From: Methylobacterium sp.
Lineage (GTDB): Bacteria > Pseudomonadota > Alphaproteobacteria > Rhizobiales > Beijerinckiaceae
DNA: 10,856 nt
Direction of reading: 5' to 3'
NCBI GenBank assembly: GCA_020252865.1
Contig: JADCCH010000120.1
Coordinates: 1 to 10,856 of the forward strand
The notes under the pieces were generated by a model. That model worked only from the letters and a program-made list of their open reading frames with translations, had not been told where the DNA came from and did not search any database. The position numbers and the translations under genes were made by a program. Below, in pieces: positions 1-9,428 of this stretch (its first letter is position 1; every line of letters starts with the position of its first letter).

Positions 1-438
1 CACCGTCAGCGCAGATGCCGGCTTGTCCGCCTCGCTTGCGAGCCCAACCAGCGCCGCCACGCGATCCGCCTCGGCCATCGCGGCACCACGCGCGGGATGG
101 CGGAGATAGGCGCCGACAGCGATGTTCTCCCGTACGCTGAGCCCCGCGAAGGGTTGCACGATCTGGAAGGTGCGCGCGAGGCCGAGCCTGGCAAGCGCCT
201 CCGGCGGCTGCCCGAGGATCGAGCGCCCCTCGTAGAGCACATCGCCCGCGCTCGGCACGGTGAAGCCGGAGATCATCGTGAAGGCCGTGGTCTTGCCCGC
301 GCCGTTCGGGCCGATGAGCCCGGTGATGGAGCCGGCTTCCACGGTGAAGCTCACATCGTTGACGGCGGTGAGGCCGCCGAAGCGCTTCGTCAGGCGACGG
401 ACCTCAAGCATCGGGCCTTGCGGCATCGGATCAGCCAT
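1..438 (-). CDS. livG: Branched-chain amino acid-type ABC transporter ATP-binding protein LivG (partial, C-terminus outside window)
   Basis: Cytoplasmic ATPase that would power the LivH/LivM permease pair encoded just upstream. Only the first 146 codons are in the window; the frame is open to the left edge. Translation from the ATG at 438 shows the Walker A motif GPNGAGKTT at residues 43-51 and the Q-loop segment ARTFQIVQPF with Gln92, both typical of the LivG branch of the HAAT family. The ABC signature, Walker B and H-loop lie beyond the edge and cannot be checked. The ATG overlaps the end of livM by 8 nt (ATGGCTGA), which suggests translational coupling. A livF ATPase gene is expected further left, by family habit only. 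Family assignment is secure; the transported substrate is not shown. Confidence 0.93.
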   Translation of the reverse strand, partial: MADPMPQGPMLEVRRLTKRFGGLTAVNDVSFTVEAGSITGLIGPNGAGKTTAFTMISGFTVPSAGDVLYEGRSILGQPPEALARLGLARTFQIVQPFAGLSVRENIAVGAYLRHPARGAAMAEADRVAALVGLASEADKPASALTV

Positions 439-1405
439 GGGAGGTCGGCTCCCCGCCCCGGTCGCCCTTTGCAAACAGGCCGATCACTCCGCGCGGCGCG
501 AAAGCCACGACGAGAATGAGCACGATGCCATAGACCACGAGATCGATGCCCGGCACGCGACCCGCCGCGAGCTTTGTGATCTCGCCAAGGCCGTGGAGCA
601 AACCCGCGCCAAGCAGCGGGCCGAGCACCGTGCCCGCGCCGCCGATGATCGCGGCGAGCAGGGCTTCCACGGAAATCCACGGCCCGAAGGCGATGGCCGC
701 GTCGAGATAGAGGAAATACTGCGCATAGAGCGCGCCCGCCGCCGCGGTGATCGCGGCGGAGAGCGAGATCGCCTGCAGCTTCACGGCCAGCACATTGACG
801 CCCAGCGCCCGCGCCGCCGCCTCGTTCTCGCGGATCGCCACGAGATAGGCCCCGAAACGGAGCCGCTCGATGGCGCGGTTGAGGATGAGCACCGCACCGA
901 CCAGCCCCAGCGCGATCCAGAAGAACACCGCGCGGCTCGCGAACTGGAAATTCTCAGGGCGCACATCGAGCTTGATCAGGATGCCTGCCGCGCCGCCGGT
1001 GATCGGCGCAGCGTTGGCGAGAATGCGCAGGACTTCCGCGAAGGCGAGCGTCACCAGTGCGAAGTATGAGCCGCGTAAGCCCGCGCGAAAGCTCAGCGAG
1101 CCGATGACAAACCCAACAAGGCTGCCGAGCGCGATGCCCGCCGCGAAACCCAGCCACGCATTCACGCCATAGCGCACCTGCAGGATGGCGGTCGTGTAGG
1201 CGCCCACGCCGAAGAAGGCAGCATGGCCGAAGGAGAATTGCCCGCCATAGCCGCCCGCGAGGTTCCAGCCCTGCGCGGCCAGCGCAATGACCAGCACGAA
1301 GAACAGGAAGTTGAGCGCCGTGTTCGGCAGGCCGAGGAACGGCAACCCCGCGAGCAGCACGAGAAGGCCAATCAGGAATGCAAAAGACGGATGACGCAGC
1401 AACAT
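431..1405 (-). CDS. livM: Branched-chain amino acid-type ABC transporter permease LivM
   Basis: Inner-membrane permease of 324 residues, a normal length for LivM (BPD_transp_2 family). Long hydrophobic segments run through the whole protein, about eight or nine membrane spans. Recognisable family blocks are GQFSFGHAAFFGVGAY near residues 55-70 and IIGGAGTVLGPLLGA near 253-267, the latter being the region that normally contacts the ATPase. The start ATG at 1405 lies 3 nt beyond the livH stop, with only a modest AAGG element upstream, so coupling to livH is likely. It ends inside the livG start. Liv-type permeases also serve amides, urea, aromatic acids and other organic acids, so the symbol denotes the family and not the substrate. 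Confidence 0.92.
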   Translation of the reverse strand: MLLRHPSFAFLIGLLVLLAGLPFLGLPNTALNFLFFVLVIALAAQGWNLAGGYGGQFSFGHAAFFGVGAYTTAILQVRYGVNAWLGFAAGIALGSLVGFVIGSLSFRAGLRGSYFALVTLAFAEVLRILANAAPITGGAAGILIKLDVRPENFQFASRAVFFWIALGLVGAVLILNRAIERLRFGAYLVAIRENEAAARALGVNVLAVKLQAISLSAAITAAAGALYAQYFLYLDAAIAFGPWISVEALLAAIIGGAGTVLGPLLGAGLLHGLGEITKLAAGRVPGIDLVVYGIVLILVVAFAPRGVIGLFAKGDRGGEPTSHG

Positions 1406-1408
1406 ATG

Positions 1409-2281
1409 TCAGGCCTTCGCGCCGAACAGGCCGGTGGGGCGCAGCAGCAGCACCAGGATGAAGATGAGGAAGATGCCGATCTGGCCGAGCGATTCCCCCA
1501 GCAAGAGGCCGCTCACGCTCTCGACCATGCCGATGAACAAACCGCCGATCAGCGCGCCAGCGATCGAGCCCATGCCGCCGAGCACCACAATCGTGAAGGC
1601 CACGAGCACGAAGGCATTCCCCACGCGCGGGTTCACGTAGAACGAGGGCATCAGGAGTGCGGCCGCCACAGCAAGGCAGGCGCAGCCGAGGCCGAAGGTG
1701 ATCGCATAGACATGCGCGACATCGATACCCATCAGCGTCGCGCCGAGCCGTTCCTTCGCCACCGCGCGGATCGCCTTGCCGGTATCGGTGCGGACCATGA
1801 ACAGCCAGAGCAGGATCGCGACGGACACCGAGCCCGCCAAGCCAATGAGCTTCGGCTGGGAGAGCAGCAGCGGGCCGATTTCCACCACGTTGAAGCCATA
1901 GGGCACATCGATCGTGCGGGTATCCGACCGGAAAACGGCCAGCAACCCGTTCTCGATCAGGATCGAGAGGCCGAGCGTCACCAGCAGGATGTTCTGGTCG
2001 TCGCCATGGCTCGCGGGGCCGATCACGAAGCGTTGCAGCCCATAGCCGAGGGCGAAGAACAAAGGCGCGAGAAGGAGGATCGAGACATAGGGATCAATCC
2101 CCAACGCGGCATGCAGCACGAAGACCGCGAACATCGCGGCGGTCAGCAGGGCGCCATGCGCGAAATTGATGATGTGCAGCACGCCATAGACGAGCGTCAG
2201 CCCGAGCGCGATCAGCGCATAGACGGCACCGGTCATCAGCCCGTTCAGCACGGCCTCGAAGATGATGGCGGGCGAATACAT
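1409..2281 (-). CDS. livH: Branched-chain amino acid-type ABC transporter permease LivH
   Basis: Inner-membrane permease of 290 residues, the typical LivH size, partner of LivM. The N-terminal block GLTLVYGVLHIINFAHG (ending near residue 43) and the block VLGGMGSIAGALIGG near 233-247 are hallmarks of LivH proteins; about eight hydrophobic segments are seen. The start at 2281 is preceded by a good Shine-Dalgarno sequence (AGGAG, 7 nt from the ATG). It is the third gene of the operon, 89 nt after the binding-protein gene, a gap that contains a stem-loop. The protein looks intact. The substrate cannot be read from the permease sequence. Confidence 0.93.
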   Translation of the reverse strand: MYSPAIIFEAVLNGLMTGAVYALIALGLTLVYGVLHIINFAHGALLTAAMFAVFVLHAALGIDPYVSILLLAPLFFALGYGLQRFVIGPASHGDDQNILLVTLGLSILIENGLLAVFRSDTRTIDVPYGFNVVEIGPLLLSQPKLIGLAGSVSVAILLWLFMVRTDTGKAIRAVAKERLGATLMGIDVAHVYAITFGLGCACLAVAAALLMPSFYVNPRVGNAFVLVAFTIVVLGGMGSIAGALIGGLFIGMVESVSGLLLGESLGQIGIFLIFILVLLLRPTGLFGAKA

Positions 2282-2315
2282 GCCGCGCTCCTGCTGGCGA
2301 AAGCGACAGGCTCAA

Positions 2316-2346
2316 GGGCCGCATCCGGGGTTGAGGGACGCGGCCC
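2316..2346 (-). other. Stem-loop between binding-protein gene and livH
   Basis: A perfect 7-bp inverted repeat, GGGCCGC at 2316-2322 and GCGGCCC at 2340-2346, with a 17-nt loop. It lies in the 89-nt gap between the stop of the binding-protein gene and the start of livH. No T-run follows on the minus strand, so it is not a standard intrinsic terminator. In ABC operons such stem-loops often protect the 3' end of the abundant binding-protein message or cause partial termination, which would give more binding protein than permease. That role is inferred from position only. Confidence 0.45.
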
Positions 2347-2370
2347 GTTCCTTCCGAGTTCAGACCGGGT

Positions 2371-3603
2371 TCATGCCCGGACGGGGAAGACCGGCCTGGC
2401 ATTGTCGAAGCTTTCCGGGAAGATCACCTTGATGTCCCCGCCCTGAACCTGGGTATTCACCGGGCCCGCGCCGGTATTCTGTCCATTGACGAACTTCGTC
2501 GGGCCATAGGGCATGATGTGATCATCGAAGGTCGAGTTCGCCAGCGCCTCGATGATCTTGCCACGATCCGCCGAGCCTGCCCGCTCGATCGCATCCGCCA
2601 GCAGGCGCACGCAGGAATAATTGAGCGGAATGTTGTAGGCCCAGACCGAGCCGGCATCGGCGGAGGCCTTCATCACGGCGGCGGATCTCGCCTTGCGCGG
2701 GTCATGCCAGTGGTTGCAATCCATCACGTTTTCCGCCGCATCCGGAAATTCCTTCACGAAGCGGAAGTTGGAGGCCGCACCGTTCAGCACCGCATAGATG
2801 CCCTTCGGGCGGATGCGCTGCTGCTGCATGGTGCGCGCGAGCAGCACGAACTCGCCGTAATAGCTCGAGGGGATCACGAGATCCGGGTTCAGCGCGCGGA
2901 TGCGCAGGGCGACATTCGCCATGTCACGCGAAGGGGTGGGGTGGGCGATGGTCTCGAGCACCTCGAAGCCGTGCTTCGGAAGTTCCGTCGCCATCAGCTT
3001 GGCGAGGCCCGAGCCAAAGAGGCCATCCTCATGCACCAGCACCACGGTCTTCGCAGGCTTGCCGGCCGCGTCGTTGAGCTTCACGAGGTTCGAGACGGCT
3101 GCCGTCGTCACGGTGCCGAAGCCGGGGCCGAGACGGAAGGTGTTCTTCAGCCAACGATTGACGCTCTGGTCGGCGACGCCCACATCCACAATGTATGGCA
3201 GGTCATAGCGAGAGGCGGCCTGGCTCGCCGCAAGGCAGATCGGCGAGGCGAAACCGCCGACAATTGCCGCGACGCCCTCGGCGTTCAGCTTTTCGACCTC
3301 CTGAGTCGCCGCTTCCGGGTTCGAACGGGCATCGGCGAAAACCATCTCCAGCTTCGCGCCACCCATCGACCGGACGCCGCCGGCGTCGTTGATCTCCTTC
3401 AGCGCGATTTCCGCACCGAGGCGGCCGAAGCCGCCATCCTGCGCCAGCGCGCCGGTTACCGGCTGGAGAATGCCGACCTTCACGGCCGGGACCTGCGCCC
3501 GCAGGATGGCCGGCGAGGCGATGAAGGCAGCGCCCGCAAGCGCACCCTTGAGGATCGTGCGGCGGTCGGCGTCGCCGGAGAGGATCGGGTTTTTGGTGGT
3601 CAT
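2371..3603 (-). CDS. ABC transporter periplasmic substrate-binding protein, Liv/HAAT type (Peripla_BP_6), with Tat-like signal
   Basis: Periplasmic receptor of 410 residues that would deliver ligand to LivH/LivM. The N-terminus carries a twin-arginine-like signal: DRRTILKG with Arg14-Arg15, then a hydrophobic alanine-rich stretch (residues 20-33) and a probable processing region around RAQ at 35-37. The mature part opens with VKVGILQPVTGALAQDG and continues GAEIALKEINDAGG, the classic start of type I Leu/Ile/Val-binding folds; 410 residues is usual for the family. The start ATG at 3603 has a clear GGGAG Shine-Dalgarno upstream. It lies 26 nt downstream of the regulator gene and ahead of livH. 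Homologues bind amino acids, amides, aromatic acids and other carboxylates, so the ligand is open; the neighbouring organic-acid enzymes suggest a carboxylate. Confidence 0.9.
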   Translation of the reverse strand: MTTKNPILSGDADRRTILKGALAGAAFIASPAILRAQVPAVKVGILQPVTGALAQDGGFGRLGAEIALKEINDAGGVRSMGGAKLEMVFADARSNPEAATQEVEKLNAEGVAAIVGGFASPICLAASQAASRYDLPYIVDVGVADQSVNRWLKNTFRLGPGFGTVTTAAVSNLVKLNDAAGKPAKTVVLVHEDGLFGSGLAKLMATELPKHGFEVLETIAHPTPSRDMANVALRIRALNPDLVIPSSYYGEFVLLARTMQQQRIRPKGIYAVLNGAASNFRFVKEFPDAAENVMDCNHWHDPRKARSAAVMKASADAGSVWAYNIPLNYSCVRLLADAIERAGSADRGKIIEALANSTFDDHIMPYGPTKFVNGQNTGAGPVNTQVQGGDIKVIFPESFDNARPVFPVRA

Positions 3604-3629
3604 GAAGGCTCTCCCTGTTGTTCTCGACT

Positions 3630-4466
3630 TTATTCGGCGGCTTCGGGGGGGTGATTGTCTCCAGGCTTCGGACCATCTACCGCCACAGGGCGCCAGCGAC
3701 GCCCCTCGCGATGGCCGGCACGGACCAGATCCATCTGGAACGAGTAGAGATCGGGGCGATAAAGCGCCAGCAGATGCTCGATTCCCCTTCCCTGCGCATC
3801 GAACACGGTGCGCGTCAGCGTGAGCAGCGCCGCGCCCGGTTCGATGCCCAGGGGACGCGCCACATCCGGCCCGGCGAGCGTGGCCGTGATGGTCTGCCGC
3901 GCATGGTCGGCCACGAGGCCCGCGCGCTCCAGCAGTTCCAGCAAGGGCTTCCTGGCGAGGTCATCCTCGCTCCAGCCGATGCCGATACTCTCCGGCACCG
4001 ACGACACGAGATAGGAGAAGGGCTGGCCATCGATCAGGCGCACGCGCTCGGATCGCTGGACGCGCTCACCCTCGGGCAGTTGCAAGGCCGTCCTGATATC
4101 CGGTGACGGCGCGAGATAGGCGAAGGAGAGGAGCTTCACGCTCGTGCGACGGCCCATTTCCAGGAGATGCGTCAGCACATTGGCCAAATCCGCGACTACC
4201 GGGCTGCCGCCACCCCGTGGGCTCAGATAGGTGCCCGAGCCCATGCGCCTCTCGACCAGCCCTTCGGCCTCGAGCCGATCCAGCGCATGCCGCAGGGTGA
4301 CGCGGGAGACGCCGAGTTCGACCGCGAGCGTCGGCTCGCCGGGAAAGCGCTTGCCCGGTCGAAACTCACCGCGCGAAATCCGGTCACGCAGGGCGAGATA
4401 GGCACCGCGGGCGCGGCTGAGGCCGGCACGAACACTCCGCTCGGCACCGTCTGCCGCAGAATCCAT
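3630..4466 (-). CDS. GntR family transcriptional regulator, HutC subfamily (winged helix plus UTRA domain)
   Basis: DNA-binding, ligand-responsive regulator of 278 residues. The N-terminal winged helix spans roughly residues 20-83: FRPGKRFPGEPTLAVELG, then VSRVTLRHALDRLEAEGLV and the wing GSGTYL at 76-81. The rest, from about 100 on, matches an UTRA effector domain: LPEGERVQRSERVRLIDGQP, later GIEPGAALLTLTRTVFDAQG and HLLALYRPDLYSF. The ATG at 4466 was chosen because the protein begins a normal distance before the helix-turn-helix and a GGGG element lies 8 nt upstream; the frame stays open far upstream (to 5987), but that part is antisense to leuC and resembles no protein. It heads the transporter operon, 26 nt before the binding-protein gene, and diverges from leuC. 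Autoregulation and control of both operons are inferred. The effector is unknown. Confidence 0.9.
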   Translation of the reverse strand: MDSAADGAERSVRAGLSRARGAYLALRDRISRGEFRPGKRFPGEPTLAVELGVSRVTLRHALDRLEAEGLVERRMGSGTYLSPRGGGSPVVADLANVLTHLLEMGRRTSVKLLSFAYLAPSPDIRTALQLPEGERVQRSERVRLIDGQPFSYLVSSVPESIGIGWSEDDLARKPLLELLERAGLVADHARQTITATLAGPDVARPLGIEPGAALLTLTRTVFDAQGRGIEHLLALYRPDLYSFQMDLVRAGHREGRRWRPVAVDGPKPGDNHPPEAAE

Positions 4467-4655
4467 TCCGCATGCCCCTTTCCAAACCCTCTGCCCGGCC
4501 CAAATCGATGATGGACCGCGAAAGTCCGTGCCGAAAAGACCCTTGCCTGTCTGCTTTACTATCCCGATATCTGTCTTACCTATAGAACAGGCTTGAGCCG
4601 TCAAGCCGCCGGCAATCCTTTTCCGCCAGGCCTTCGCAATTTTCTCCGGTGGCGC
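4467..4655. promoter_or_regulatory. Divergent intergenic regulatory region between the GntR gene and leuC
   Basis: This 189-nt stretch separates the minus-strand regulator/transporter operon from the plus-strand leuC operon and must hold the promoters of both. Its core (about 4541-4592) is clearly more AT-rich than the surroundings and contains TATAGA at 4581-4586, which could serve as a -10 element for the plus strand. I found no -35 box at good spacing, so no start site is assigned. CTGTCT occurs twice, at 4547 and 4571, 24 nt apart, and GCCTGT (4545-4550) is the inverse of ACAGGC (4587-4592). Shared control by the adjacent regulator is likely but inferred. Confidence 0.6.
4571..4590. promoter_or_regulatory. 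Candidate GntR/HutC-type operator dyad
   Basis: The 20-nt element CTGTCTTACCTATAGAACAG is an imperfect palindrome centred between 4580 and 4581: CTGT-n2-TA-n4-TA-n2-ACAG, with 12 of 20 positions symmetric. GntR-superfamily operators are commonly dyads with GT and AC outer parts and TA-rich inner parts, and this one sits between the regulator and its divergent neighbour, overlapping a possible -10 element for leuC. That position would suit repression. No binding evidence is available from sequence alone. Confidence 0.45.
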
Positions 4656-6074
4656 ATGAACGAGACCCCGCCCCGCACCCTGTTCGACAAGGTCTGGCAG
4701 GCCCGTCTCGTGCTGACGCGCGAGGATGGCACCAGCCTGCTGGCCATCGACCGGCACTTCCTTCATGAGGGGTCGCACCACGCTTTCGCGCAACTCGCCG
4801 AGAGGGGCGCGCACGTGGCGCGGCCCGATCTCACGTTCGGCGTCGCGGATCACTATGTGCCGACCCGGCGCGGCGCGGGGCAAGCCATCGACCCGACCAT
4901 CGCGGAGATGGTCCAGCGGCTCGAGCGCAATACGGCAAAGCATGGCATCACGCTCTTCGGCCTGGGTGATCCGCGGCAGGGCATCGTGCATGTCGTGGGG
5001 CCGGAACAGGGGCTGACGCTGCCCGGTCTCACCATGGTCTGCGGCGACAGCCACACATCGACGCACGGAGCCTATGGCGCGCTCGCCTTTGGCATCGGCG
5101 CGAGCGAGGTCGCGCATGTGCTGATGACCGGGACGCTCTGGCAGAGAAAGCCGAAAACCTTCCGCGTGAAGGTCGAGGGCATCCTCGGCTCCGGCCTCTC
5201 CGCCAAGGATATCGCGCTGCATCTCATCGCGACCATCGGTGCCGACGGCGCGACGGGCCATGCCCTGGAATATGCCGGCAGCGCCATCCGCACGCTTTCG
5301 ATGGAGGGGCGGCTCACACTCTGCAATCTCTCGATCGAGAGCGGTGCCCGCTGCGGCATGATTGCGCCGGACGAGACAACCTTCCGCGCGATTGCGGGGC
5401 GCCCCTACGCACCCAAGGGCGCGCTGTTCGAGCAGGCGGTGGAAGCGTGGCGGCAGCTCCCCAGCGATGCGGATGCGCATTTCGACCGGGAAATCACAGT
5501 TTCCGCCAATGAGATCGCGCCGATCGTCACCTGGGGCGTCACGCCGGAACAGGCTTTGCCGGTCACCGCTCGCGTGCCGGACCCAGCGCGAGAACCCGAC
5601 CCCGTGCGGGCGGAGGCCGCGCGCGCCGCACTCGATTACATGGGCCTCGCGCCCGGAACGGCACTCGCAGAGGTGCCGGTCTCGCGCGTGTTCATCGGCT
5701 CCTGCACGAACAGCCGCATCGAGGATCTGCGCGCGGCGGCCAGCATTCTCGCGGGGCGCAGGGCGCGCGTGCCCGGCCTCGTTTCGCCCGGCTCGTCGAG
5801 CGTGAAGCGGCAGGCGGAGGAGGAAGGGCTCGACCGCATCTTCCGGGAGGCCGGGTTGGAATGGGTCGAATCCGGCTGCTCCATGTGCGTGGGCATGAAT
5901 GGCGATATCGGCCAGCCCGGCGAGCGCATCGCTTCCACCACCAACCGAAATTTCAAGGGAAGGCAGGGCGCGGGCGTGCGCACGCATCTGATGAGCCCGG
6001 CAATGGCCGCCGCAGCCGCGATTGCCGGCACGCTTGCCGATTGCCGTCCCTATTTCGAAGGGCGCAGGCCATGA
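4656..6074 (+). CDS. leuC: LeuC-like 3-isopropylmalate dehydratase family large subunit (aconitase superfamily)
   Basis: Large subunit of 472 residues of a two-subunit [4Fe-4S] hydro-lyase; the reference reaction is isomerisation of 2-isopropylmalate to 3-isopropylmalate through a dehydrated intermediate. All three cluster cysteines are present: Cys350 in FIGSCTNSR, and Cys408 and Cys411 in GCSMCVGMN. GDSHTSTHGAYGALAFG (130-146), DPRQGIVHVVGPEQG and TTNRNFKGRQG are also conserved. The ATG at 4656 gives the usual beginning, TPPRTLFDKVWQARLV; a TTG at 4593 would add 21 residues unlike LeuC. The ribosome binding site is weak (GGTGG). It is first in the plus-strand operon and overlaps leuD by ATGA. 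The setting, beside a HutC-type regulator, transporters and a CoA ligase rather than leucine biosynthesis genes, suggests a catabolic paralogue acting on another hydroxydiacid such as citramalate or a methylated malate; that is inference. Confidence 0.88.
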   Translation: MNETPPRTLFDKVWQARLVLTREDGTSLLAIDRHFLHEGSHHAFAQLAERGAHVARPDLTFGVADHYVPTRRGAGQAIDPTIAEMVQRLERNTAKHGITLFGLGDPRQGIVHVVGPEQGLTLPGLTMVCGDSHTSTHGAYGALAFGIGASEVAHVLMTGTLWQRKPKTFRVKVEGILGSGLSAKDIALHLIATIGADGATGHALEYAGSAIRTLSMEGRLTLCNLSIESGARCGMIAPDETTFRAIAGRPYAPKGALFEQAVEAWRQLPSDADAHFDREITVSANEIAPIVTWGVTPEQALPVTARVPDPAREPDPVRAEAARAALDYMGLAPGTALAEVPVSRVFIGSCTNSRIEDLRAAASILAGRRARVPGLVSPGSSSVKRQAEEEGLDRIFREAGLEWVESGCSMCVGMNGDIGQPGERIASTTNRNFKGRQGAGVRTHLMSPAMAAAAAIAGTLADCRPYFEGRRP

Positions 6075-6670
6075 GACCGTTCACGCGCGTCACGGCGCTG
6101 GCCTGCCCGCTGGCCATCGCCAGTATCGACACGGATCAGTTGATCCCAGCCCGCTTCATGCGCCGAACGCGGAAGGAGGGCTATGGCCCGGTCCTGCTGC
6201 ATGACCTGCGCTTCGAAGCGGATGGCGCGCCGAAACCCGATTTCCCGCTGAACCGCCTGGAATACAGGAGCGCGGGCTTCCTCGTGGCACGGCGGAATTT
6301 CGGCTCGGGTTCCAGCCGCGAGGCAGCGGTTTATGCCCTCGCGGACTTTGGCATCCGTGCTGTCATCGCACCGTCCTTCGGCGATATCTTCGCGCAGAAC
6401 GCGGTGAATAACGGCCTGCTGCCCGTGCGCCTGCCGGAGGATCAGGTCGAGCAATTGCTCGCGAAACTCGCGGCGGAGCCTGCGGAAATCACGGTCGATC
6501 TGGAGAGAAAACAGGTGGAGGCGACTGGCCTCATCCTGCCCTTCTCGCTGGATCCGGTCTGGCGAACGAAGCTCCTGAACGGTTGGGATGACCTCGACCT
6601 CACGCTCAGCCACCGTGCAGAAATCGAGCAATTCATGGCCCATGACGCCAGTTCTCGGCCCTGGATGATG
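6071..6670 (+). CDS. leuD: LeuD-like 3-isopropylmalate dehydratase family small subunit; no stop codon before the downstream ligase
   Basis: Small (swivel-domain) subunit that completes the active site of the LeuC-like partner. The LeuD domain covers about residues 1-198: SIDTDQLIPARFM (18-30), NFGSGSSREAAVYAL (76-90), VIAPSFGDIFAQNAVNNGLLPV, and the C-terminal GWDDLDLTLSH ending in SSRPW. Proteins of the family usually stop within a few residues of that point. Here the frame does not stop: it continues through about 50 unrecognised codons into the acyl-CoA synthetase and ends only at 8518. The end given is therefore an approximate domain boundary, not a stop. Both other frames do have stops just after Trp198 (TGA at 6666-6668 and 6673-6675), so one indel would restore a normal gene. 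Family members used for leucine synthesis typically read FGCGSSREHAPWAL; the Ser and AAVY here support a paralogue. Confidence 0.8.
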
Positions 6671-6808
6671 CCTGATCGTTCAGTACAGCCCGCAATCTGT
6701 CGGGTCCTGGAGCAGTTTTCGAAATCCTGCCTCCGAGGCTTGCCTGAACCACGGCCGAGGCCAATCTCCCTGGGACAAAACAAGAATGCGGGGCGGGAGG
6801 AGTCACCC
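6671..6808 (+). other. Unrecognised in-frame linker between the leuD domain and the acyl-CoA synthetase
   Basis: About 138 nt that is open in the leuD frame but looks like a former intergenic spacer. The implied peptide has no recognisable domain and is rich in Pro, Arg and Ser. Third codon positions are clearly less GC-rich (about 65 percent by hand count) than in the flanking genes. It ends with a strong Shine-Dalgarno sequence, GGGAGGAG at 6795-6802. Small inverted repeats (GGCCGAGGCC and similar) occur, but no terminator and no convincing promoter. Confidence 0.5.
6795..6802 (+). promoter_or_regulatory. Ribosome binding site of the acyl-CoA synthetase
   Basis: GGGAGGAG is a near-perfect Shine-Dalgarno sequence, 6 nt before the TTG at 6809 and 12 nt before the ATG at 6815; both are in the same frame and only two codons apart. 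The 6-nt distance favours the TTG and the codon identity favours the ATG. Either way, the site argues that the ligase starts its own translation despite the open frame from leuD. Confidence 0.6.
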
Positions 6809-6814
6809 TTGATC

Positions 6815-8518
6815 ATGACCAATCAGGAACAGGGCCCCGAGGCCGGCCCGGCGCAAGACGTGTCGACGATCCGGCTGATCGGGGATATCGCGCGCAATTC
6901 CGCCCGTATCTATGGGGCAAGAACGGCCTATTCGATCGTCATGCCCAATGGCATGTACGGAAGGTTGAGCTTCGAGGCGATCGACAGCCTTTCGGATGAT
7001 TTCGCGGCCTATCTGCGCGAGGAGCTGGGGCTGCATGCAGGCGACCGGGTGGCCTTGCAGATACCCAACAGGCTCACCTTTCCCATTCCGACGTTTTGCG
7101 TTGCCAAGGCCGGCCTCGTGCTGGTCAACACCAATCCACTCTACACCGGCGTGGAAATGGGAAGGCAGTTCGCCGATGCCGGAATCCGCGCGCTCGTCAT
7201 CGTCGACATGTTCGCGGACAAGCTGACGGAAGCCGCCTCGATCCATCCGATCGAGCATGTCATCATCGCGGCGGTCTCGGAAAAGATGCCGCGTATGGTG
7301 AGCGGGGTCATCCGGCTGGTGCAGCGCTACTGGGACCGGTCGCTGCCGATGGTCGGCCTTCCCCATCATCTGTTCGGTGACGCACTCGCGCGCGGCGCGG
7401 CGTTGCGCGCGAGCCGGGGCATCGAGGTCAAGGATTACACGGCCGATACCCGCCCCGATGAGCTGGCGATGCTGCAATATACCGGCGGCACGACGGGCGT
7501 CGCGAAGGGCGCGATGCTCAGCCATTCCAACCTGGTATCGAATGTGGGGCAGGCCGGAATCTGCTTCGGCGGGGAAATCCGTCCCGGTGCGGAAGTTGTT
7601 CTCACGGCGCTGCCGCTCTACCACATCTTCGCCTTCACCGCGAATATGCTGTTCTTTCACAGATGGGGGGCCGAGAACATCCTGATCCCCAATCCGCGGC
7701 CCATTTCGAACCTCAAGCGCGCCTTCGAGAACCACGCCGTCACCTGGATGACCGGTGTGAATACGCTGTTCAATGCGCTGAACAACGAATTCTGGTTCGC
7801 GGAAGATCCGCCGAAATCCCTGCGCGGCGCGGTGGCCGGCGGCATGGCCTTGCAGGCCTCCGTGGCCGAGCGCTTCAAGGCGATCACCGGCATCGACGTG
7901 CTGGAAGGCTACGGGCTCACGGAAACCTCGCCGATCGTCACCTTCAATTCCCGCCGGAATTTCCGGCTCGGCACCATCGGGCAACCCATGCCCGAGACGG
8001 ATATCCGCCTTCTCGATGCCGAGGGGCAAGCGGTGGGCCCGGGCGAACCGGGCGAAATCGCCGTGCGCGGCCCGCAGGTGATGGGCGGCTACTGGAACAG
8101 GCCGGAGGAAACCGCCGCCACCCTGCGCAACGGCTGGCTGATGACCGGCGACATCGCGACGGTCGATTCCGAGGGCTTCTACCGCATCGTCGATCGCAAG
8201 AAGGACATGGTGCTGGTCTCCGGCTTCAACGTCTATCCGAACGAGGTCGAGGATGTGCTCTCGGCCCATCCCGGGGTGGTCGAGGCGGCAGTGATCGGCG
8301 TGCCGGATGGCGCGGCGGGCGAAGCGGTCTGCGCGTTCGTGGTGCTGCGCCACCGGGAGGCCCCGACGCCCGGGCAATTGCGCGAGCATTGCAAGGCGCA
8401 TCTTGCCGCCTACAAGGTACCCAAACGCATCGAATTCCGCGAACAGCTGCCGAAATCGAATGTCGGCAAGATTCTCCGGCGCGAGTTGCGCGCCGAACTG
8501 GAAAAGGCGGGAGGCTGA
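6815..8518 (+). CDS. fadD: FadD-like long-chain acyl-CoA synthetase (AMP-forming)
   Basis: Activates a carboxylic acid to its CoA thioester through an acyl-adenylate, using ATP and CoA. The protein has 567 residues, close to E. coli FadD. Motifs in order: YTGGTTGVAKGAM at 222-234 (ATP-binding loop), YGLTETSP at 366-373, GWLMTGD at 440-446 with Asp446, DRKKDMVLVSGFNVYPNE starting near 460 (the hinge and FadD/FACS signature region), and the C-terminal PKSNVGKILRREL with the probable catalytic Lys552. The start is set at ATG 6815; TTG 6809 is an alternative two codons earlier with better spacing to the ribosome binding site. The frame is continuous with leuD, so a fused 815-residue product is possible. 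FadD-like sequence suggests fatty-acid-like substrates, but the family is broad and the context hints at an imported organic acid. Confidence 0.92.
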   Translation: MTNQEQGPEAGPAQDVSTIRLIGDIARNSARIYGARTAYSIVMPNGMYGRLSFEAIDSLSDDFAAYLREELGLHAGDRVALQIPNRLTFPIPTFCVAKAGLVLVNTNPLYTGVEMGRQFADAGIRALVIVDMFADKLTEAASIHPIEHVIIAAVSEKMPRMVSGVIRLVQRYWDRSLPMVGLPHHLFGDALARGAALRASRGIEVKDYTADTRPDELAMLQYTGGTTGVAKGAMLSHSNLVSNVGQAGICFGGEIRPGAEVVLTALPLYHIFAFTANMLFFHRWGAENILIPNPRPISNLKRAFENHAVTWMTGVNTLFNALNNEFWFAEDPPKSLRGAVAGGMALQASVAERFKAITGIDVLEGYGLTETSPIVTFNSRRNFRLGTIGQPMPETDIRLLDAEGQAVGPGEPGEIAVRGPQVMGGYWNRPEETAATLRNGWLMTGDIATVDSEGFYRIVDRKKDMVLVSGFNVYPNEVEDVLSAHPGVVEAAVIGVPDGAAGEAVCAFVVLRHREAPTPGQLREHCKAHLAAYKVPKRIEFREQLPKSNVGKILRRELRAELEKAGG

Positions 8519-8519
8519 C

Positions 8520-9428
8520 ATGGTCGGCGCATTTGAACAGGCCGTCCTTGCCGCGATGATCTTCGTCATCATGCTCGGCATGGGCGCTTCCCTCACGCCC
8601 CGCGACTTCGTGCTCGCGCTGAAGCGGCCCTATGGCATGCTGATCGGGCTCGTCTCGCAATATGGCTTCATGCCCCTGATCGGGCTGATCCTCGCGCTCA
8701 CCCTGCCCGTCTCGGACCCGATCAAGATCGGGCTGCTCATCATGGGCTGCATGCCCGGCGGCACGACCTCGAACATCTTCACCTATTTCAGCCGCGGCAA
8801 TCTCGCGCTCTCGGTGCTGATGACCGTGAACTCGACCATCGTGGGCATCCTCGCCATTCCGCTGCTGATCGTGAGCTATGTCGCGATCCTCACCGCGACC
8901 GGTTCCATCTCGCTGGTGGTTCCGGCGCAGAACATCATCGTCACGCTCATCCTGCTGCTGGTGCCGGTGGCGATCGGCATGGCGATCCGCCGCTGGAACG
9001 CCAATGTCGGCGCGCTGGTGGAACTGGTCGGCAGCGCGCTGGGGCTGGTCTTCATCATCCTGCTGCTGGTGACCTGGGTGCCGCGCAACTGGCAATTCCT
9101 GCTCGAGACGCCGGGCTGGGTGTTCTTCGGCGCCATCGGGCTCGGCGTGTTCGGCTTCCTGTTCGGCTATCTGTTCTCGACGCTGCTGAAGCTGCACCCG
9201 CGCAATGCACGCACCATCGCGCTCGAGACCGGCATCCAGAACGGCCCGCTGGCGATCGCCATCGTCGCCTTCACCTTCACCGGGCCCCTTCAGGACATCC
9301 AGCAGGCTGTGATGGCCGTTCCGGCGCTCTATTCGCTGTTCATCGTCATTACCTCGGCGATGCTGACGATCTGGTTCCGGCGCGCGAATGCGACGGAGGA
9401 ACAGAAGATCCCCGATGCCCTGCTCTAG
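8520..9428 (+). CDS. BASS family (bile acid:sodium symporter, SBF) transporter
   Basis: Inner-membrane, probably Na+-coupled carrier for organic anions, 302 residues with about nine or ten hydrophobic segments, the normal size for bacterial BASS proteins. Family marks are GCMPGGTTSN at 76-85 and ETGIQN at 236-241. In the characterised Neisseria homologue a Glu and a Gln four residues apart bind sodium; Glu236 and Gln240 fit this. The ATG at 8520 follows the ligase stop by one nucleotide and has a GGGAGG Shine-Dalgarno about 5 nt upstream, so both are surely cotranscribed. An importer next to a CoA ligase suggests uptake followed by thioesterification of the same acid, which is inference. Substrates of the family include bile acids, pyruvate, pantothenate and other carboxylates. 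Confidence 0.88.
   Translation: MVGAFEQAVLAAMIFVIMLGMGASLTPRDFVLALKRPYGMLIGLVSQYGFMPLIGLILALTLPVSDPIKIGLLIMGCMPGGTTSNIFTYFSRGNLALSVLMTVNSTIVGILAIPLLIVSYVAILTATGSISLVVPAQNIIVTLILLLVPVAIGMAIRRWNANVGALVELVGSALGLVFIILLLVTWVPRNWQFLLETPGWVFFGAIGLGVFGFLFGYLFSTLLKLHPRNARTIALETGIQNGPLAIAIVAFTFTGPLQDIQQAVMAVPALYSLFIVITSAMLTIWFRRANATEEQKIPDALL

Follow-up and report, generated by a model that had tools for sequence, protein, structure and literature searches.

Here we ask whether a leuD-like gene and an acyl-CoA synthetase gene that share one open frame in a Methylobacterium sp. contig encode a fused protein or are two genes whose boundary has been lost. The window (the whole 10,856-nucleotide stretch analysed, contig JADCCH010000120.1 of assembly GCA_020252865.1, hereafter G000) had been predicted to hold an uninterrupted frame of 815 codons, and a second reading of 6071–8518 bore this out: no stop separates the ATG at 6071 from the TGA ending at 8518, and a stand-alone LeuD of about 200 residues is not found in the window, as the frame runs on. 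The first part of the frame (residues 1–123, Pfam Aconitase_C, PF00694; residues 1–199, LeuD subfamily PRK01641 of NCBIfam) exceeds the curated LeuD cut-offs (NF002458, 234.9 bits against 167; TIGR00171, 189 bits against 116.25) and, like leuD, follows a leuC-like gene; it is a putative small subunit of a 3-isopropylmalate dehydratase. As the two genes overlap by ATGA, leuD may be translated by coupling to leuC. The second part has the full AMP-binding domain (residues 278–675 of the joined frame; PF00501, 274.3 bits) and C-terminal domain (AMP-binding_C, residues 725–800; PF13193, 77.6 bits) of FadD-kind long-chain fatty acid CoA ligases, both over cut-off. It differs from that kind in scoring below the NCBIfam FadD cut-offs (NF004229, 580.6 bits against 879; NF006523, 580.1 bits against 884), and its exact subfamily is thus left without assignment.

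Relatives of the LeuD part were collected by scanning genome contigs, and the best 80 of 168 places were kept. In all of these 80 the LeuD frame ends after 199–235 residues, with counting begun where the match begins. The scan may omit the window's own genome and genomes very near to it, so that little can be concluded from its lack of another fused copy. The two nearest relatives of the LeuD part are L009 (G010:C17; 97% protein identity, 94% on LeuD) and L010 (G009:C21; 90% on LeuD), which have the same gene order as the window, with the ligase downstream. At the aligned codon 206 (6686–6688) the window reads CAG and both relatives read TAG; the difference from L009 at this codon is a single T-to-C change at 6686. 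Because L010 carries the same TAG as L009, the simplest view is that the stop is ancestral. Stop-loss (nonstop) substitutions can join neighbouring genes in one frame, and the likeness here is close: a single substitution makes a sense codon of TAG, and the open frame extends into the next gene. The difference is that the change is seen in one assembly only, where an error may explain it. As judged from these alignments, the joined frame is caused by the loss of one stop codon in this contig. The dN/dS of leuD is 0.20 against L009 and 0.24 against L010.

The original prediction had offered a true fusion, a stop-codon loss with the ligase also starting on its own, and a sequencing indel; the second of these is supported, by the TAG/CAG difference at 6686 and by the ligase TTG and Shine-Dalgarno shared with relatives. 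It had expected leuD to stop at about residue 199–201, whereas in these two relatives the stop is the 206th codon, eight beyond Trp198. It had also named a stop directly after the RPW segment in several close relatives as an observation that would count against a fusion, and both relatives of the same gene order stop shortly after that segment. The leuD and ligase frames are very probably those of two separate genes joined by a stop loss, which would be either a recent private mutation or an assembly error, the balance between these two branches being about even.

How one base could join two genes is apparent from the spacer between them. Between the CAG and the ligase start lie 120 bases at which the window and L009 do not differ, which makes a comparison with L009 uninformative about constraint on the linker. 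L009 has the same stop-free, in-frame spacer of 40 codons, yet keeps its TAG; the spacer would be stop-free and in frame by chance, and loss of the TAG alone would be enough to join the frames. In L010 the spacer contains indels (net 4 bases) that place leuD and the ligase in different frames. These frame-breaking indels support the earlier view of the linker as a former spacer, and the linker does not appear to be evolving as protein. In a more distant relative, L094 (G006; 78% identical over residues 223–814), an in-frame TAG lies two codons upstream of the TTG of the ligase. The interval 6500–6900 contains no promoter-like site, and its sole terminator-like site lies on the minus strand inside leuD, with 0.4 such sites expected by chance.

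The ligase, which had been predicted to be complete and to have its own Shine-Dalgarno sequence, was found to be so, but most likely not with the proposed length of 567 residues: a start at TTG 6809, six bases after the Shine-Dalgarno, gives 569 codons. A TTG aligned with 6809 stands behind a purine-rich stretch in all six relatives whose DNA was read by eye (L009, L010 and L091–L094), while three of them (L091, L092 and L093) lack the ATG of 6815. For this reason TTG 6809, rather than ATG 6815, is most likely the ligase start. Translation of leuD in L009 and L010 would end at the TAG, with separate initiation of the ligase at the TTG. If the CAG in the window is real, ribosomes leaving leuD would run on into a LeuD–linker–ligase protein, put at about 88 kDa in the original prediction, and the ligase would also be made from its own TTG. 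The coordinates of these features are collected in Table 1.

Table 1. Positions in the window of the leuC-, leuD- and ligase-related features.
Feature	Position	Strand	Basis or remark
leuC-like large subunit (PRK12466 subfamily)	4593–6074	+	Predicted start; TGA overlaps the leuD ATG as ATGA
leuD-like small subunit, 205 codons	6071–6685	+	NCBIfam match; stop of relatives at codon 206
CAG in place of the leuD stop TAG of L009 and L010	6686–6688	+	T to C at 6686
Probable former intergenic spacer (40 stop-free codons in the leuD frame)	6689–6808	+	Identical in L009; indels in L010
Shine-Dalgarno GGGAGGAG of the ligase	6795–6802	+	Purine-rich stretch at the same place in six relatives
FadD-like acyl-CoA ligase, likely TTG start, 569 codons + TGA	6809–8518	+	Pfam and NCBIfam; DNA of relatives
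Block near-identical to L009	6575–8674		12 differences in 2,100 bases

The lost stop lies within a block that covers the spacer and the ligase and is about 99.4% identical to L009 (12 of 2,100 bases differ in 6575–8674), whereas the rest of the contig is about 93–94% identical and the 9.4-kb alignment as a whole 94%. Such a contrast points either to a recent exchange between two lineages or to a chimeric contig. Seven of the 40 other G000 contigs fetched could be aligned to the stretches of G010 used, and in these the highest identity of any 400-bp stretch was 98.75%; three such stretches reached at least 98.5% and none 99%. Of the 11 ligase differences between the window and L009, nine are nonsynonymous and two synonymous, compared with 40.5 and 52.5 between L009 and L010 (Fisher's test on rounded counts, P = 0.023). 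A ratio of 9:2 is as expected if the differences are unfiltered recent changes or errors. Judged against the other relatives, the odd base is the window's at 6686, 6831, 7088, 7091, 7097, 7152, 8290 and 8419, and that of L009 at 6941, 7181 and 8084; position 7070 is equivocal. L094 also shows T at 7097 in the DNA alignment, next to a gap, but its protein has G at this place. Six of the 11 ligase differences, all nonsynonymous, fall within 112 bases (7070–7181).

We give an even chance to a real, recent stop loss in this strain, neutral or mildly harmful, that followed a recombination bringing in the spacer–ligase block. One transition is enough, and the recent ligase changes show little purifying selection, although the CAG is present in one assembly only. 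This leuD copy may also be dispensable: a second leuD-like gene, 38% identical, lies on contig C216 of the same assembly, so the copy at 6071 is not the only leuD there. The leuCD copy of the window is found beside an acyl-CoA ligase and a bile acid:sodium symporter-like protein, and also beside minus-strand genes resembling branched-chain amino acid or urea-type ABC transporters, with matches under NCBIfam cut-offs (431–9428). The frame at 3630–5987, also beside leuCD, presumably holds a GntR-like regulator. The region 431–9428 may represent a catabolic gene cluster that includes a second leuCD.

Just short of an even chance goes to a consensus error or strain chimera, in which the true genome would keep the stop and the CAG would be the product of wrongly called bases or of mixed reads. 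The G000 assembly is fragmented (392 contigs; completeness 78.37%), and a chimera would produce a block near-identical to L009 within a more divergent contig, of a kind seen in none of the seven other contigs; recent homologous recombination accounts for the block equally well. The window-private changes cluster at 7088–7152 and include G343C, at a residue where all 27 distinct homologues compared have G (23) or A (4), as counted from 29 rows in which two places occur twice and from which the homologue L007 was dropped by a filter. Against an error stand the three of nine nonsynonymous differences that fall on the L009 side, so that odd changes are not confined to the window, and the absence of gaps relative to L009 in the block. 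Most stops elsewhere are also kept: when 71 coding-like frames of G000 were compared with G010, 65 kept a stop codon. This set was filtered on third-position changes; frames of the window itself are among its members, as is at least one that runs antisense to the ligase, but leuD is left out, its stop-to-stop frame holding about 150 non-coding codons. The six exceptions are five frames of 110–169 codons, which may not be genes, and one of 365 codons with its stop aligned to a gap. A first count of stops kept, 87 of 99, was discarded, as it included antisense frames.

A selected, bifunctional LeuD–acyl-CoA ligase fusion protein is very unlikely, even though the frame is open and both domains are complete. 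The stop is kept in both syntenic relatives, the linker appears to be a spacer that carries indels in L010, and the ligase retains its own start. No other uninterrupted LeuD–ligase frame was found among the matches listed for 17 genus genomes and 397 family genomes; a fusion common to more than one genome was not seen among them. In the family search two candidates were scored per genome, 365 of the 397 genomes matched at the cut-off used, and the matches were listed in order of score, so that a full fusion should rank high among them; the only other full-length match listed is G010, with its TAG. A search of G000 with 6400–7100 did not find the locus a second time. An old fusion gains no support from the relatives' stops or from the genus and family matches listed, which lack a second fused frame.

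The adjacency itself is uncommon. Among the matches listed, leuD lies directly before the ligase in three of the 17 genus genomes, the window's included (G000, G009 and G010), and in G011 the two genes are on different contigs. Within the best 80 of 168 LeuD loci, a ligase motif occurs within 3.3 kb downstream in two (L009 and L010); seven of the loci do not extend that far, and the search would overlook any ligase that lacks the motif. Similarity to the window at the DNA level starts only at 6923 in L092, 6791 in L093 and 6779 in L094, after about 1.5 kb of unlike DNA, and leuD thus does not adjoin the ligase in these relatives; in L091 only about 350 bases are available before the ligase.

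There is only a slim chance that the frame represents the first step of a newly born LeuD–acyl-CoA ligase fusion, in which recombination of the spacer–ligase block and then the single stop loss would have given one protein; if so, two enzymes encoded in one gene cluster, a dehydratase and a CoA ligase, would have been brought together. A sequencing indel near 6640–6665, proposed because the other frames have stops there, can be set aside almost entirely, since the alignments have no gaps against L009 (4519–9270) or L010 (6071–6688) and the stop of both relatives lies in the same frame, at 6686.

The most likely reading remains that of two separate genes joined by an ordinary stop-codon loss. 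The locus carries a caution, in that a single base is enough, in a fragmented assembly, to produce a seemingly new two-domain enzyme, the origin of which is exposed by two close relatives. If the mutation is real, it would be a small example of adjacent genes beginning to fuse.
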